Part shown: positions 2,221-20,932 of the stretch, in pieces
How the letters are laid out: the number at the start of each line of letters is the position of its first letter
How positions within the stretch are numbered: position 1 is the stretch's first letter
Assembly: GCA_015233245.1 (NCBI GenBank)
Contig: JADFYB010000017.1
Location: forward strand, 1-35,009
DNA: 35,009 bases
DNA from: Nitrospirota bacterium
GTDB taxonomy: Bacteria; Nitrospirota; Thermodesulfovibrionia; Thermodesulfovibrionales; Magnetobacteriaceae
Reading direction: 5' to 3'
Translations under genes and position numbers: made by a program
Notes under the pieces: generated by a model
Told to the model about the DNA's origin: nothing
Database searches by the model: none
The model's input: the letters and a program-made list of their open reading frames with translations, nothing else

Positions 2221-3795
2221 TTACTTTTCCTTGCCCGTTAAGTAGTTAATCGCTAAAGGAATGTATTCTATGAGGTCTGACGCAATAGTGGAATATACCC
2301 CAATCTTATCAGCAGCAATCTCGCCAGCCATGCCATGTATATAGACTCCTAAGAGGGCAGCATATAGCGGAGGCAAGCCCTGTCCTGAAAATGATGATAT
2401 TATGCCCGTAAGGACATCCCCAGCCCCTGAGGTTGCCATAGCCGGGCTGCCTGTGGGATTGATAAATGTGTTTCCCTCAGGGTCAGCCGTTATAGTAGGC
2501 ACTCCCTTAAGTATCAGGTAAGAGGTTGAGAGGGCAGAAAACTTTGATGCCTCACCCACTCTGTCCCTTTCCACCTCCATACACTTAGGAGAGAGGTTTG
2601 AAGTTTTACCCTCAAGCACGAGCCTTGCCATTTCAGCCGTGTGTGGTGTGATAGTTACCGGGGACGGAGATGTGTTTAAAATGTTTATCCTCTCATGGTA
2701 CTTTAGTGCTGATAGCGAATTTATACCATCAGCGTCAAGCACTATGGGAACAGGAGAGTTAGCTATTAACTCTCTGACCAGTTCCACTGTGTCAGTGTCA
2801 ACACCCATACCCGGCCCTATGGCTATAACATCACAACGCCTTTCTGCAAAATCCAGTATCTCTGTAAGTGCCTTTTTAGAAAACCTTCCCTTGCCCTTAT
2901 CTGCAACAGGCAGGGTCATCTCCTCGGTAACCCGTGACTGATAGGTGTCCAGCAGTGAGGATGGCACCCCGATTGTGGCAAGCCCCGAGCCTGATCTCAT
3001 AGCGGCCTTTGCCGCCATTACAATGGCGCCGGTTTTACCCCTTGCACCGCCTATAAAAAGTACATGTCCATAATTACCCTTATATGAGTAGTCAGGACGA
3101 GTCGGCAAAAACATTGATACCAGATTTCTTTCCACAGTTTCACAGGTGATATTTTCATCAGTAAGAAAAACTCTCGGAAATCCTATATCCTCTACAAACA
3201 GCTCCCCTGTGTAATCACGTCCTGGATGTAACAAGTGGCCGCGTTTGGGTAGTCCGAATGTTATTGTATGTGTTGCTTTAACAGCATGTCCTAATATCTC
3301 ACCAGTATCTGAGGATATCCCTGAGGGAATGTCAACTGAAAAAACAAAGCAGCCGCTTGAATTTATATAATCAATGGTTTTAGCCATAGAATCCTTTACC
3401 TGCCTGATGAGACCGGTACCAATCATTGCATCAACTAAGATATTACCAGCAATATCACTGTCACGAACGACAGGTTTAGAAAAGATCTCAATATCGTATT
3501 TCTTTAAAAGCTCAAATTGAAAACGACAAGCATCGCTTAAAGAAGCAAGCTCGGCAGCCATAAACACATGCACACAGAAGCCGTTATTATAAAGCTCTCT
3601 TGCAGCGACAAGACCATCACCGCCATTGTTTCCTCCGCCACAGATTATAGTTACCGACTGGGGCGCAAACCGTTCCATTATCCGCTTTGCAACAGCAAGT
3701 CCCGCTCTTTCCATAAGTATCACCTGCGGAATCCCCACGTCCTCTATAGTCCTGCGGTCTATTTCCATCATCTCTTTTGCTGTAACTGCTTTCAC
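2221..3795 (-). CDS. nnr: Bifunctional NAD(P)H-hydrate epimerase / ADP-dependent NAD(P)H-hydrate dehydratase
   Basis: Repairs hydrated NAD(P)H (NADHX/NADPHX): the N-terminal domain epimerises the S and R forms and the C-terminal domain dehydrates the S form using ADP. The protein is 524 residues, usual for the fused enzyme. Residues 1-215 are the YjeF_N epimerase domain with the glycine-rich loop GGGNNGGDG at 53-61. Residues about 235-515 are the ribokinase-like dehydratase with DADGIN, an ITPHTAEM segment and the nucleotide-site GAGD at 457-460. The start is GTG at 3795, whose last bases overlap the TGA of acpS (GTGA, 4 bases), so it is translationally coupled. The order pdxJ-acpS-nnr is a recurrent cofactor operon. 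Nothing appears to be missing. Confidence 0.95.
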   Translation of the reverse strand: MKAVTAKEMMEIDRRTIEDVGIPQVILMERAGLAVAKRIMERFAPQSVTIICGGGNNGGDGLVAARELYNNGFCVHVFMAAELASLSDACRFQFELLKKYDIEIFSKPVVRDSDIAGNILVDAMIGTGLIRQVKDSMAKTIDYINSSGCFVFSVDIPSGISSDTGEILGHAVKATHTITFGLPKRGHLLHPGRDYTGELFVEDIGFPRVFLTDENITCETVERNLVSMFLPTRPDYSYKGNYGHVLFIGGARGKTGAIVMAAKAAMRSGSGLATIGVPSSLLDTYQSRVTEEMTLPVADKGKGRFSKKALTEILDFAERRCDVIAIGPGMGVDTDTVELVRELIANSPVPIVLDADGINSLSALKYHERINILNTSPSPVTITPHTAEMARLVLEGKTSNLSPKCMEVERDRVGEASKFSALSTSYLILKGVPTITADPEGNTFINPTGSPAMATSGAGDVLTGIISSFSGQGLPPLYAALLGVYIHGMAGEIAADKIGVYSTIASDLIEYIPLAINYLTGKEK

Positions 3796-4175
3796 TGTCT
3801 TTTGGCCTCCTGACTCTCAAGTACTACCATTGCCACACTGTGGGTTGACTCATGACTTATACTTAGGTGCATACGGCATACTCCGTGTTGTTTTGTAAAA
3901 TCATCCGCACCTCCATAAAGCAAAAGGTAAGGTTTACCCAATTTATCATTACATACCTCAATCAGCGTAAAAGGAAAAAACACACCCGCTGCTTTTATAA
4001 AAGCCTCCTTAGCAGCAAACCTTGCAGCCAGGGAGGTTTCTGAAAAACGCTGTCCAACACAATAATCACGTTCCGTCTTTGTATATATACGGGTTAAAAA
4101 CCTGTCGCCCCATTTTTCAAATGCCTTTCTTATGCGCTGATTTATGATTATATCAACTCCGATACCAAAAATCAT
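3792..4175 (-). CDS. acpS: Holo-[acyl-carrier-protein] synthase
   Basis: Transfers the 4'-phosphopantetheine arm of CoA to the conserved serine of acyl carrier proteins, activating them for fatty acid synthesis. The 127-residue length is normal for AcpS. The N-terminal GIGVDIIINQRI segment holds the magnesium-binding aspartate, and FAAKEAFIKA in the middle is the second family signature. The ATG overlaps the stop of pdxJ by 4 bases (ATGA), and its own TGA overlaps the GTG of nnr, so the three genes form a tightly coupled unit. It is a plausible activator of the unusual carrier protein encoded at 19526-20113, which carries its own serine attachment site. Confidence 0.95.
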   Translation of the reverse strand: MIFGIGVDIIINQRIRKAFEKWGDRFLTRIYTKTERDYCVGQRFSETSLAARFAAKEAFIKAAGVFFPFTLIEVCNDKLGKPYLLLYGGADDFTKQHGVCRMHLSISHESTHSVAMVVLESQEAKRQ

Positions 4176-9533: not shown

Positions 9534-10847
9534 TCACGGTTTCTGATGTTTGTCGAAATTGAAGTCGTAGGTGTTCCACGATTTACACGATGGGCAGCGC
9601 CCCTCCCAATCTGTGGCCTCGTGTTTACAGTTTAAGCAAATGTAGGGAATTCTCAGTGCTCTCTTAAGTCCTATGACTTTTAAAAACTCAGCGGCTGCCT
9701 TCTCACATTCGTTTCTTCTTAAGTAGAGGCTACCCTTTATCTTATGCACCTCTGAGTATGTGGATGTGCTGTCAAAGGAGTTGAAAATATCCAGCGCCTC
9801 GTCAAGCATTTCAAGCCGATAGTAGAGTTTACCAAGGAAGAGTTTTATAGCATCGGCCTCTGGATTGTCAGATAGCGCATTTTTATAAATTCTGATAAGT
9901 CGCGACGGTTCACTTTCATTTATGAGCAGATCCTCAAGCCTTGCAAGTATTATCAGGGAGTTTGTTTCCTTATGAACCTTCTCAAGATAATTTATGCCGG
10001 ACTCGGTATTGCCTTCAAGCAAAAACACCTCAGCAAGCCCCAGATGCGCAGGGATAAACGACTTATCATACTTGATCACTTCTTTAAACACTTTCCTTGC
10101 CTTCTCAATTTCGGAATTTTCCAGAGACTGTCTGCCATACTCGTATTCATAACCGTGGAGAATTCTCTCTTGTGCCTCTTTATGGGAATCGTTATCTGGT
10201 AAACTCTTAAGTATCGTCTTTTGCAGGTGTATTAGTTCATCCCACCGGGATTGCTGTTCAAATATCTCGCGCTTCTTATACAAAGCTAGTGCATTGTGCG
10301 GTTCTAAAACAAGAATTTTATCGGCTGTCTCCTCCGCTTCATGTAACACTCCCTGCGCTATTCGCACATCCAGAGACTTAAAGAGTACCTCAATGTTTCC
10401 TGAGTCCATGGTGAGCGCCTTGTGGTAAAGCTCCATTGCCTTCATGGTTTCATTTTTTTCACTGTACGTATCGGCTAACTTTACAATTGAGGGAATGTGC
10501 TCCGGATTTTCTTTTAGCACATTTTGTAGCTCCACCACTGCCTCATCCACAAGATTAGCCGCGGCATAATTGACTGCCTTTGAGTACAGAACCTGCGACA
10601 TTTCCTCTTTTTTACGTTTCTTTTGCGTTAACCTCGACTGAATATAGTTTCTGGTATCACGTATAAAGAAAATCACAAACATTAAAGCAGCTCCGATTAT
10701 AGTTGAGACAGCCATCAGAGCTATTAAAGGAAGATCATAGGCAAGTTCCTTTGTAAGATGCAGCCTTACTGAATCACTGTTGTATATGGCAAGATAAAAC
10801 ACGCCACAGAGCACAACAAGAAACAATAACGATGTAAATCTTATCAT
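9534..10847 (-). CDS. LapA-LapB fusion: lipopolysaccharide assembly regulator with TPRs and zinc ribbon
   Basis: Encodes 437 residues. Residues 1-65 have two membrane helices (about 6-22 and 41-62) separated by YNSDSVRLHL and DLPL, which matches the LapA (DUF1049) layout. The following 330 residues are tetratricopeptide repeats (for example SIVKLADTYSEKNETMKAME). The C-terminus is the rubredoxin-like LapB metal site C404-x2-C407 ... C418-x2-C421. In E. coli LapA and LapB are separate neighbouring proteins at the inner membrane; LapB promotes FtsH degradation of LpxC and so limits lipopolysaccharide synthesis. Here both appear in one polypeptide. The ATG shares a single base with the rsfS stop, so it is cotranslated in a nadD-rsfS-lapAB run. 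The LapB assignment is firm; the LapA assignment rests on topology and motif. Confidence 0.85.
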   Translation of the reverse strand: MIRFTSLLFLVVLCGVFYLAIYNSDSVRLHLTKELAYDLPLIALMAVSTIIGAALMFVIFFIRDTRNYIQSRLTQKKRKKEEMSQVLYSKAVNYAAANLVDEAVVELQNVLKENPEHIPSIVKLADTYSEKNETMKAMELYHKALTMDSGNIEVLFKSLDVRIAQGVLHEAEETADKILVLEPHNALALYKKREIFEQQSRWDELIHLQKTILKSLPDNDSHKEAQERILHGYEYEYGRQSLENSEIEKARKVFKEVIKYDKSFIPAHLGLAEVFLLEGNTESGINYLEKVHKETNSLIILARLEDLLINESEPSRLIRIYKNALSDNPEADAIKLFLGKLYYRLEMLDEALDIFNSFDSTSTYSEVHKIKGSLYLRRNECEKAAAEFLKVIGLKRALRIPYICLNCKHEATDWEGRCPSCKSWNTYDFNFDKHQKP

Positions 10848-16915: not shown

Positions 16916-17659
16916 ATGGTAGTTGTGGTTTTATATGCGGTCTCAGCAGAGGGCAAATACATCACAAGAGCGCTTTCTGAAAGAGTCTCTGTCTCCGGCT
17001 ATACTCACGTTGGATATATTAACAGAAGCAAAGTTGTCTGCATTGAAACGCAAATGGGTAAAGTTAATGCAGCGTGTGAGTCGTCATCAGCTATAAAAAC
17101 TTATGCACCTGACGTTATTATTTCAACCGGAATAGGCGGCGCTTATCCAGGCACAGACCTAAATATTGGAGATGTAGCTGTTTCAACTTGTGAAATATAC
17201 GGCGATGAGGGTGTTTTATTAAAGGACGGTTTTCTGGACACCTTTCAGATGGGAATTCCTCTGTTAAAAAAAGGCAAAAAACTTTTTTTTAACGAATTTG
17301 ATATGGACACTCCTGTTACGCAGAAAGCATATGAAATAATATCAGGTGTATTGTCAGGCTACGGAGTAAAAAAGGGCAAATTTCTAACCGTATCCTCCTG
17401 CACAGGGGATAATGAACGGGCAGTTATGCTCAAAGACAACCACTCTGTTATATGTGAAAACATGGAGGGGGCAGCTGTAGCCCATGTTTGCACTAAGTAC
17501 AGGGTGCCCGTCATCGAGATAAGAGGAATCAGCAATATAGTTTCAGACAGGGATAAGAGTAAGTGGGATATTGCACTTGCTATAAAAAACTGCTCTAACG
17601 CCGTTATTTTATTGTTAAATACATTAAACACTCAGAGGTTACAAACTTGGTTGAAATAA
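16916..17659 (+). CDS. mqnB: Futalosine hydrolase (menaquinone biosynthesis), nucleosidase family
   Basis: Encodes 247 residues of the nucleoside phosphorylase/MTAN superfamily. Family features include the N-terminal VLYAVSAEGKYI, the glycine loop ISTGIGGAYPG, the CEIYGDEGV segment typical of futalosine hydrolases, SSCTGDNERA, and the active-site ENMEGAAVAH. The enzyme removes hypoxanthine from futalosine in the alternative menaquinone route of many anaerobes. A methylthioadenosine/S-adenosylhomocysteine nucleosidase is the main alternative, but the YGDEGV and SSCTG elements favour MqnB. No strong ribosome binding site is visible before ATG 16916. The Nudix gene begins inside its last 13 bases. 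No other mqn gene lies in the window. Confidence 0.85.
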   Translation: MVVVVLYAVSAEGKYITRALSERVSVSGYTHVGYINRSKVVCIETQMGKVNAACESSSAIKTYAPDVIISTGIGGAYPGTDLNIGDVAVSTCEIYGDEGVLLKDGFLDTFQMGIPLLKKGKKLFFNEFDMDTPVTQKAYEIISGVLSGYGVKKGKFLTVSSCTGDNERAVMLKDNHSVICENMEGAAVAHVCTKYRVPVIEIRGISNIVSDRDKSKWDIALAIKNCSNAVILLLNTLNTQRLQTWLK

Positions 17660-18219: not shown

Positions 18220-19524
18220 CTATTCGGCAGCACTGATACACAGACATGCGTTTTGGCCGCCAAAGCCAAAAGAGTTGGAAAGTACATAGCTATGCTGCCT
18301 CTGTATTGCAGCATTTGGTACGTAATTGAGGCTGCACTTGGGGTCGGGAAATTCGTAGTTAATCGTAGGAATAATAGTTGAACTATTAATACCCATTATG
18401 CTAAGAACACATTCAATTGCCCCTGCCGCGGCTATAGTGTGTCCAAGCATTGATTTATTCGAGCTTATCGGGACAGTATCAGAAAGGGTGCCAAACACTT
18501 CTTTAATAGCCATGGTTTCAGTAGCATCGTTTTGAAGGGTTGAGGTGCCGTGGGCGTTTATATATCCAATATCGGCAGGACTTAGTGAAGCATCCTCAAG
18601 GGCTGCCCGCATGGCAATTACAGCGCCCTCCCCTTTTGGGTGCATATCGGTTATCCTGTAGGCATCGGCAGAGGAGCCATAGCCTCTAATTTCAGCATAA
18701 ATGTTAGCGCCGCGCTTTTTAGCGTGGCTAAACTCTTCTAAGATTACAGCCCCTGCACCCTCAGACATAACAAAGCCGTTCCTTTTTCTGTCAAACGGGC
18801 GTGAGGCCTTATCAGGCGTGGAATATTTTTCAACCAATGCCTTTATAAGAACAAAGCCTATAAAACCGGTAAAATTAAGCGAAGACTCACATCCGCCAGC
18901 TATCATAACATCCGTTGCACCGGACTTTATAAACGCACAGGCCTCGCCTATGGCCTGAGAGCCCGCTGCACAGGCGCTTGCTATAGCAAGATTAGGCCCC
19001 TTACAGTTAAACAGCGCAGAAAGCAACGTTGAACCCACGTCTGATTTTCGCCTGAAGAAGTTAAAATACGAATATCCGCCTTTGTTTCTAAGCCCTTCAA
19101 TATCCCATCCGCCTTTACCGTCATAAAACCTGTGCAGAAACACCATGTCGCTAACAACCGGATTCTCACCATGAAAACCAAGAGCGACCCCTGCGCTCTC
19201 CGGTATAGTTTTGGCACTTAGCCCTGCTCTCTTAAGTGCCTCATCAGTGGCTCCTATCATAAACCTTGAGCCTCTTGTCACATATTTTTCAAGCCGTTTA
19301 ACATCTATTTCATTGTTGATGTCTTTAATGTTTACGTTCCATGAACCGTTAACCTCACCGCCAACCGTGCAGGGGAGCCCTCTTGTATCAAAATTAGTAA
19401 TTTCTCCTATGCCGGAGCGCCCCAAACGTGCATTTTCAAACGTTTCATCGGCAGTTACCCCAAGCGGAGTTATCATACCGTAACCGGTAACCACAATCCG
19501 GCGCTTTTTCTGCTCCGTACTCAT
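18220..19524 (-). CDS. Beta-ketoacyl-ACP synthase, FabF/KAS II-like
   Basis: Encodes 434 residues from ATG at 19524. Frames open further upstream to 19614, but RRIVVTGYGMITPLG is the normal FabF N-terminus and the upstream gene ends one base before this ATG. The catalytic triad of condensing enzymes is complete: C185 (IASACAAGSQ), H325 (NAHGTST) and H362 (KSMLGHT). The segment FGFGGQNA near the C-terminus is also conserved. It elongates an acyl chain on a carrier protein by Claisen condensation. Residues about 118-165 (FHGENPVVSDMVFLHRFYDG and onward) look longer and less FabF-like than usual. It sits directly after an atypical carrier protein gene and a FabL-like reductase, not in a standard fab operon, so a secondary lipid or polyketide-like product is likely. 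Confidence 0.9.
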   Translation of the reverse strand: MSTEQKKRRIVVTGYGMITPLGVTADETFENARLGRSGIGEITNFDTRGLPCTVGGEVNGSWNVNIKDINNEIDVKRLEKYVTRGSRFMIGATDEALKRAGLSAKTIPESAGVALGFHGENPVVSDMVFLHRFYDGKGGWDIEGLRNKGGYSYFNFFRRKSDVGSTLLSALFNCKGPNLAIASACAAGSQAIGEACAFIKSGATDVMIAGGCESSLNFTGFIGFVLIKALVEKYSTPDKASRPFDRKRNGFVMSEGAGAVILEEFSHAKKRGANIYAEIRGYGSSADAYRITDMHPKGEGAVIAMRAALEDASLSPADIGYINAHGTSTLQNDATETMAIKEVFGTLSDTVPISSNKSMLGHTIAAAGAIECVLSIMGINSSTIIPTINYEFPDPKCSLNYVPNAAIQRQHSYVLSNSFGFGGQNACLCISAAE

Positions 19525-19525
19525 T

Positions 19526-20113
19526 TCAGGATTTAATAATGTTATGGTCTTTTTGGGTTTTCTCAAGCCAGTTTTTAATGAGATCATCTCCGTTTTCATA
19601 AGGCGCCTCGGCACTGCAACCGCCGCATATTACGTGTGTGCCGTCCTCGGTTTTCCAGCTTGATGCGCCACAGGCAGGACACTTTTCAGGCAGAGAATCC
19701 AAAATATCCATAACTGCCATTGACATTGACTTTACGGTCACCATTGCCGGCAGGGCATCCATATCCATACCCGGAGTGAGTTCATCAAAACTCTCCCCCG
19801 CCTCCTTTCCGGCAGACAGACGTATCTTCATGAGCTTAACGGCAGTTTCGGTAAGTTGACCGTTAGAGTCAACCGCCGTGCCCTCTCCAAACATCTCCTC
19901 TATGTGCTCTATTATGAAGTGGCGTGCCATCTTTATACCAAATGTCTGCTCAAGGCGGTAATTAATGTCAAGAAAGTCCAGTGACTCGGCTCCAAGGTCT
20001 TTTATCAGAGAGCTATCCGACGTAATTTTCTCTTTGTCTATCGTCAGAGTGTCCGATATTGCTGTTTTCATCTCCTCTATCACCCGTTCAAATGGTATCA
20101 GGTTTTGTTTCAT
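19526..20113 (-). CDS. Acyl carrier protein fused to a C-terminal zinc-ribbon domain
   Basis: Encodes 195 residues, more than twice a normal ACP. Residues 8-75 form a carrier domain: ITSDSSLIKDLGAESLDFLD, with S44 in the phosphopantetheine attachment position, then INYRLEQTFGIKM and IIEHIEEMF. Residues about 85-140 are a linker with hydrophobic helices. Residues 145-166 contain C145-x2-C148 ... C163-x2-C166 (CPACG and CGGC), a zinc-ribbon pattern, followed by a charged C-terminal helix. A GGAGATGACC ribosome binding site precedes ATG 20113. It is followed one base later by the ketosynthase gene and preceded by the reductase gene. I do not recognise this two-domain protein as a named family. 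The zinc ribbon may mediate protein contacts. Confidence 0.8.
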   Translation of the reverse strand: MKQNLIPFERVIEEMKTAISDTLTIDKEKITSDSSLIKDLGAESLDFLDINYRLEQTFGIKMARHFIIEHIEEMFGEGTAVDSNGQLTETAVKLMKIRLSAGKEAGESFDELTPGMDMDALPAMVTVKSMSMAVMDILDSLPEKCPACGASSWKTEDGTHVICGGCSAEAPYENGDDLIKNWLEKTQKDHNIIKS

Positions 20114-20152: not shown

Positions 20153-20932
20153 CTATTTCGTAAAGTTTCTGAATAAACTGTTGCTCATACCGCGGTCAAC
20201 TACTATTGTTTGCCCCGATATGCCGCGGCTCTGGCCGCTGCACAGAAAATACACGACATCTGCAATTTCCTCAGGGGTAACAAAAAACGACTCCGGCATC
20301 ATATCAAGCCCCTCAACGTACTGTCTAAGCACTTTAAATGAATCGGTTTTCACAATCCCCCCTGAAACGGCATTTACGGATATTCCTTTTTTAGATAGCG
20401 TCTCCGATAAATCCCTGACCACGGCCTCCATAGCCGCCTTCATGCTGCCAAGCGGGTAGCTTGCATTGTAGTACTTACTACCCAGGCTTGATATGAAAAC
20501 TATTTTTCCGCTGGCTGCCTCTAAATAACTGAGTGCCTCCTGGACACAGAATATGTTTCCCATATAATTAGTTCTGACAAGATCATTTAGCTCCCGTTCA
20601 AAGAGTTTCTCAATCGGCTTAAACGGTGCCTTTGCTGCGTTTAAAACAAGATAATCAAGACGGCCTAAATTGCTGATGGTTTCAGCAATCAGATATTTAA
20701 CCTCGTCTTTTTTAGAAATATCAGCTTTTATTGAAACCGCATTAACTCCCAGAGATTTAAACTCCTCAACAAGCGCCTTGGCGGCACTTTCGGACTTTCC
20801 ACCCTCGCGGGAATAGTTAACGGCCACATCAACTCCGCTTTTGGCAAACCTAACGGCTATTGCCCGCCCAATTCCACGTGAACTGCCGGTTATCAAAGCA
20901 CATGGTCGTATGTTATTTGAACTGTCTTCCAT
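20153..20932 (-). CDS. FabL-like short-chain dehydrogenase/reductase with displaced active-site tyrosine
   Basis: Encodes 259 residues with an SDR Rossmann fold: cofactor motif TGSSRGIG at 15-22, an NAA motif near 98-100 and ISSLGS at 147-152. Overall it resembles FabL-type enoyl-ACP reductases (SSLGS, then a Tyr...Lys pair, then VNAVSGG...TD). FabG enzymes have Y-x3-K and FabL/FabI have Y-x6-K. Here the nearest tyrosine is Y159 with K165, giving Y-x5-K, and the position expected for FabG tyrosine is a leucine. It could be a reductase with shifted geometry or a degenerate partner subunit. It lies 39 bases before the carrier protein gene, within the minus-strand acyl island. No strong ribosome binding site was seen before ATG 20932. 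Confidence 0.82.
   Translation of the reverse strand: MEDSSNNIRPCALITGSSRGIGRAIAVRFAKSGVDVAVNYSREGGKSESAAKALVEEFKSLGVNAVSIKADISKKDEVKYLIAETISNLGRLDYLVLNAAKAPFKPIEKLFERELNDLVRTNYMGNIFCVQEALSYLEAASGKIVFISSLGSKYYNASYPLGSMKAAMEAVVRDLSETLSKKGISVNAVSGGIVKTDSFKVLRQYVEGLDMMPESFFVTPEEIADVVYFLCSGQSRGISGQTIVVDRGMSNSLFRNFTK

Follow-up and report, generated by a model that had tools for sequence, protein, structure and literature searches.

The gene under study in the window (the whole stretch of DNA that was analysed, 35,009 nucleotides from a Nitrospirota bacterium) encodes an acyl carrier protein (ACP) of an extended type that ends in a four-cysteine ribbon. We consider it likely, with a probability of roughly 60%, that this carrier is dedicated to an accessory type II fatty-acid or polyketide-like synthase producing a special envelope-lipid acyl chain, and that the Cys4 ribbon is most likely a structural, zinc-held surface used to select partners. 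The protein seems to be unnamed, as a ribbon carrier is described neither in the curated families nor in the papers found. Literature searches returned no paper combining acyl carrier protein and zinc ribbon with a ketosynthase and, judged by titles and abstracts, none on such a carrier. An earlier note on this DNA already knew of no named family with such a layout, and Pfam and NCBIfam indeed cover no ACP-plus-ribbon architecture. Features of the gene and its surroundings are collected in Table 1.

Table 1 Coordinates of the ribbon carrier, its domains and associated genes in the window
Feature	Position	Strand	Basis and remarks
Acyl carrier protein gene with putative zinc ribbon	19526..20113	(-)	ORF, 195 aa, coordinates including stop codon, ATG start; Pfam PP-binding; 52 distinct homologues
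Carrier domain of extended type, residues 8-139 (helices I to IV, with the insertion after II)	19697..20092	(-)	AlphaFold model; alignment to ribbonless carriers ending at helix IV
Ser44 codon, predicted phosphopantetheine attachment site	19982..19984	(-)	Motif GAESLDFLD; invariant in the 31-sequence alignment and in an alignment mixed with ribbonless carriers
Helix II-III insertion, residues 59-117	19763..19939	(-)	Model; same helices in ribbonless relative
Four-cysteine ribbon, residues 141-172	19598..19693	(-)	Cysteines invariant; strands 153-155 and 161-163 in model
Codons of C145, C148, C163, C166	19679-19681, 19670-19672, 19625-19627, 19616-19618	(-)	
C-terminal helix after ribbon, residues 175-190 (NGDDLIKxWL)	19544..19591	(-)	Model; G175, D176, L178 invariant
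KS1, FabF-like ketosynthase	18220..19524	(-)	Pfam, NCBIfam; Cys-His-Lys-His intact
SDR1, FabL-like short-chain reductase	20153..20932	(-)	Top match in the PDB is FabL of B. subtilis (3oic), E 1.4e-42
AcpS	3792..4175	(-)	Pfam ACPS; beside pdxJ-like and NAD(P)HX-epimerase-type, housekeeping-type genes

The reading frame follows the reductase gene after a gap of 38 nt and is preceded by a GGAG Shine-Dalgarno-like sequence, while its TGA stop is separated by a single base from the ATG of the ketosynthase gene (junction TGAAATG). That two genes had been joined by a frameshift or sequencing error was rejected, as the full length is retained in more than 50 independent homologues. The Pfam PP-binding domain (PF00550) matches residues 15-69 (E 1e-6, 29.3 bits against a cut-off of 20.8) and, together with the acceptor Ser44 at the start of helix II, places the protein among the acyl carrier proteins. 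In an alignment of 31 homologues with 52-89% identity to the window carrier as query, all 31 match PF00550 at E <= 0.01, and Ser44 and the preceding Glu are invariant, the motif being ESL and not the usual DSL.

An AlphaFold2 model built on this alignment is compact and confident (pLDDT 90.2, pTM 0.86) and contains the four ACP helices at residues 8-23 (I), 44-58 (II), 118-124 (III) and 127-138 (IV). The insertion of about 60 residues between helices II and III carries two helices (67-75 and 89-100) and a low-confidence loop near 103-106, and it is because this insertion interrupts the carrier domain that the Pfam match ends early. In extended ACPs, helix III comes after an FTV/ITV-type motif, and alignments and models place the window carrier in this type. 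The earlier note had taken the carrier domain as normal, with an extension of 100 residues behind it, and had called for a structure prediction of the protein alone. The model corrects that layout: half of the supposed extension consists of the insertion and helices III-IV, and only the last ~55 residues (about 141-195), comprising the ribbon and the C-terminal helix, are extra. On this model, and given ribbonless relatives that end where the ribbon starts, the protein is best described as an extended ACP with a ribbon tail. A Foldseek search of the model against the PDB returned ordinary ACPs and the AcpXL-type RPA2022 over the carrier part only, none at E <= 0.001 and no whole-chain structure; 3lmo was aligned over 126 columns with a TM-score by target of 0.59.

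The ribbon starts directly after helix IV in the model, with two short strands lying between its cysteine pairs C145/C148 (CPAC) and C163/C166 (CGGC). All four cysteines are invariant in the 31-sequence alignment, present in 51/51 distinct ribbon carriers complete over the ribbon and likewise invariant in the set of 50 used for the tree. Conservation of this degree, of all five residues including Ser44 in the alignment and of the cysteines in the tree set, is far beyond chance. The combination of acyl carrier and four-cysteine ribbon that the earlier note had proposed therefore stands, and the loss of the cysteines in orthologues, by which it could have been refuted, is not seen. Further invariant residues of the tail in the 31-sequence alignment are W153, G175, D176, L178 and Q187. 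Most members have the spacing CxxC-14-CxxC; six have a 13-residue loop and a few a CxC first knuckle. As the four cysteines form the two conserved CxxC-type knuckles general to zinc ribbons, zinc is their putative ligand. No curated zinc-ribbon family of Pfam or NCBIfam matches the C-terminal part over its cut-off, the best scores being 17.8 against 26.5 bits for RUBY_RBDX, 18 against 27 for DZR_2 and 16.9 against 37 for NF047912. On these grounds the ribbon was not taken as a copy of any known family of zinc ribbons, and when the rest of the genome was searched for another ribbon of this kind, nothing came below E 0.49.

A total of 52 distinct ribbon carriers were collected from Nitrospirota, deltaproteobacterial, gammaproteobacterial and Acidobacteria genomes, one of which (L055) is cut by a contig end and was left out of the 51 complete over the ribbon. 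Going by the titles of the metagenome-assembled genome (MAG) records, the hosts are Nitrospirae (among them Candidatus Magnetominusculus), Deltaproteobacteria, Gammaproteobacteria and Acidobacteria. Ribbon carriers occur in 21/296 Nitrospirota genomes and in 14 of the 56 genomes of the class around a Syntrophobacteraceae MAG (G066), with full-length representatives also found in the phylum of an Acidobacteriota MAG (3 among 199 genomes) and in the order around a MAG labelled Chromatiales (2/147). This patchy spread suggests horizontal transfer. At looser E-values, ribbonless extended carriers of about 130-141 aa were found, which match the profile to about position 130 and then end. They have the insertion and the TV helix-III motif in common with ribbon carriers in alignments, and one was modelled with pLDDT 86.9 and pTM 0.78 (helices 3-18, 39-53, 61-68, 85-94, 109-115 and 118-131). 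In a tree of the ACP domain only, all 50 ribbon proteins group together on a long stem with no ribbonless sequence inside, at a low node support of 0.19. This single clade can be read as one gain of the ribbon on the extended carrier type, keeping in mind the low support of the deepest node.

Both genes flanking the carrier are near-constant companions, SDR1 lying upstream in 49 of the 51 testable loci and KS1 downstream in all 51. The ketosynthase and reductase that the earlier note had singled out as partners are thus the right neighbours. NCBIfam FabL is the best-ranked model for SDR1, yet the score is 205 bits against a cut-off of 328, and the Y-x5-K motif differs from the FabL spacing, which leaves enoyl reduction by SDR1 uncertain. 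In distant genomes the full cluster reads SDR1-carrier-KS1-CLF2-DH1-KS3-KR-AcpS-DH2-KS4-LpxL-like acyltransferase (PF03279), with the order kept apart from small changes. KS1 (10/10) and KS3 carry the active site Cys-His-Lys-His (CHKH), CLF2 is without the Cys and KS4 has Ser in its place. This makes two KS-decoy pairs plausible, in which KS1 and KS3 would each be matched with a Cys-less decoy (CLF2, KS4). Genes next to some clusters encode an MMPL/RND exporter (L088) or a condensation-like protein with paired lipoprotein-like proteins (L096, L091).

In the window's genus, the SDR1-carrier-KS1 trio stays together despite displacement of the other cluster genes. These lie at ~2,690.6-2,697.2 kb in a complete genome (G001), where the carrier sits ~41 kb away at 2,648.7 kb, and a matching displaced group is found on a separate contig (L097) in G000. 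No further carrier was detected within the displaced gene group of G001. Beside the displaced half-cluster of the genus no LpxL-like gene was seen, its place being taken by a trypsin-like secreted protein (L087:6791-8608 (-), L097:2820-4604 (-)). The cluster has its own second AcpS gene, which in a same-genus genome is ~41 kb from the carrier. Given this second gene, the AcpS of the window, which sits among housekeeping-type genes, may not be cognate; it is a possible PPTase for the carrier but probably not the dedicated one. In two gammaproteobacterial ribbonless clusters, read by eye, AcpS is apparently fused in frame to the LpxL-like acyltransferase (L136:4842-6290 (-), L137:14139-15362 (+)), an arrangement that connects carriers of this type with the transfer of acyl chains to lipids.

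Several other genes were observed in the window and genus. A membrane-anchored TPR protein with a rubredoxin-like CxxC...CxxC end (9534-10847 (-)) resembles, by eye, LapB/YciM, a regulator of lipid A synthesis. A futalosine hydrolase (16916-17659 (+), TIGR03664 over cut-off) points to menaquinone synthesis via the futalosine route. Genomes G001, G003 and G000 contain several very large modular polyketide synthase frames of 2,000-3,470 aa (e.g. G000:C155:58058-58813), unrelated to the carrier cluster.

We hypothesize that AcpS would attach phosphopantetheine to Ser44, as motif and neighbours suggest. Judging by gene content and active-site residues, the chain would be extended by KS1 and KS3, probably with CLF2 and KS4 at their side, and reduced by KR, DH1/DH2 and SDR1. 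The LpxL-like acyltransferase may transfer it to a lipid acceptor. The zinc-held ribbon could select or hold a partner enzyme of the cluster, and going by linkage the best candidates are KS1 and SDR1, since they remain tightly linked to the carrier when other genes are displaced. A more specific proposal, which we put forward tentatively and rate well below even odds, is that the ribbon is a built-in docking module, along the lines of the docking onto ketosynthase or reductase raised in the earlier note. No acyl carrier known so far would then recruit one of these enzymes of its own cluster via a zinc ribbon as this one does. If so, intermediates of the accessory synthase would be kept apart from the housekeeping fatty-acid synthase.

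A strong rival to any role in partner choice, and one about as possible as docking itself, is that the ribbon serves as a structural cap only, a small zinc-held fold stabilising helices III-IV. The placement of the ribbon directly after helix IV and the prediction of the whole chain as one compact unit (pTM 0.86) agree with this, as does the tolerance of the knuckles for CxC and for a 13- or 14-residue loop, which a structural site might allow. The gene linkage is also compatible with a ribbon whose sole effect is to stabilise the carrier. However, the ribbonless relatives do without the ribbon and give a confident model of their own, and the invariant non-cysteine residues of the tail suggest that a surface or core is conserved in addition to the metal site. 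It is highly improbable that the ribbon senses redox state or metal and so switches the carrier on or off, for example by releasing zinc on cysteine oxidation. The four invariant cysteines would suit such a switch, and many hosts of ribbon carriers are anaerobes or microaerophiles, but Cys4 ribbons are usually structural and no sequence evidence separates a sensor from a structural zinc site.

With respect to the product, it is rather unlikely, though not negligibly so, that the cluster makes an aryl-polyene-like pigment lipid and not a reduced long-chain fatty acid. It shares with the APE cluster of E. coli a KS with its chain length factor, an additional KS, two dehydratases, a KR and an acyltransferase (PMC8253772), and an RND/MMPL exporter adjoins some clusters. 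Against this, no acyl-ACP synthetase (ApeH) for an aromatic starter was seen among the genes read in the clusters, and the FabL-like reductase, a constant member, would remove double bonds. With this reductase constant and no ligase for aromatic loading in sight, a reduced chain is favoured, while the Y-x5-K motif leaves room for other outcomes. An accessory synthase for a special envelope-lipid acyl chain, served by a ribbon that selects partners, remains our preferred reading. The ribbon carrier bears on how cells that run several type II synthases keep their carriers separate: its conserved extra domain, together with natural ribbonless relatives in similar clusters, offers a direct test of whether a bolt-on domain sets partner choice. 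The ribbon carrier also marks an unnamed lipid gene cluster across several phyla, including relatives of magnetotactic Nitrospirota.

Precedent for ribbon domains in complexes of thiolase-fold enzymes may be seen, as a functional analogy only, in the DUF35 zinc-ribbon/OB-fold proteins PhlB, Shy and ChsH2, whose Cys4 ribbon-bearing domains are complexed with thiolase-fold acyl enzymes (PMC6392133, PMC11321319, PMC2954200). DUF35 proteins differ in having an OB fold and in binding no phosphopantetheine arm; the tests made show no homology, and Pfam gave no DUF35 match in the window carrier. The unnamed ribbonless extended ACPs (L118-L121, L131, L132, L143-L148) share the insertion, the helices and, in most, an ESL/ESI motif, and they occur in related multi-KS clusters with AcpS, KR and FabZ. 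However, they end at helix IV, and those in the aligned set are 22-33% identical to the window carrier. AcpXL, the carrier for the very-long-chain fatty acid (VLCFA) of lipid A, provides the best PDB sequence match (RPA2022; 2kw2, 3lmo; E 1.7e-8 with a single sequence, 1.4e-11 with a profile) and the top ACP model in NCBIfam, PRK06508. Membership was rejected at a PRK06508 score of 46.8 against a cut-off of 83 bits. AcpXL is about 92-101 aa long, lacks the ribbon and has a much shorter helix II-III region; its dedicated KS/FabZ/dehydrogenase/LpxXL cluster (PMC11901934) has another gene order and a different dehydrogenase. The aryl polyene cluster likewise encodes an accessory synthase of type II; its components are KS-CLF, another KS, DHs, KR, an acyltransferase and an RND exporter (PMC8253772). 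Compared by gene content, SDR1 is an addition in the ribbon-carrier cluster, and no ribbon is reported in PMC8253772 for the aryl polyene carriers ApeE/ApeF. In layout, the AcpXL-LpxXL cluster (PMC11901934) and the aryl polyene cluster (PMC8253772) are the nearest characterised relatives of the ribbon-carrier system.
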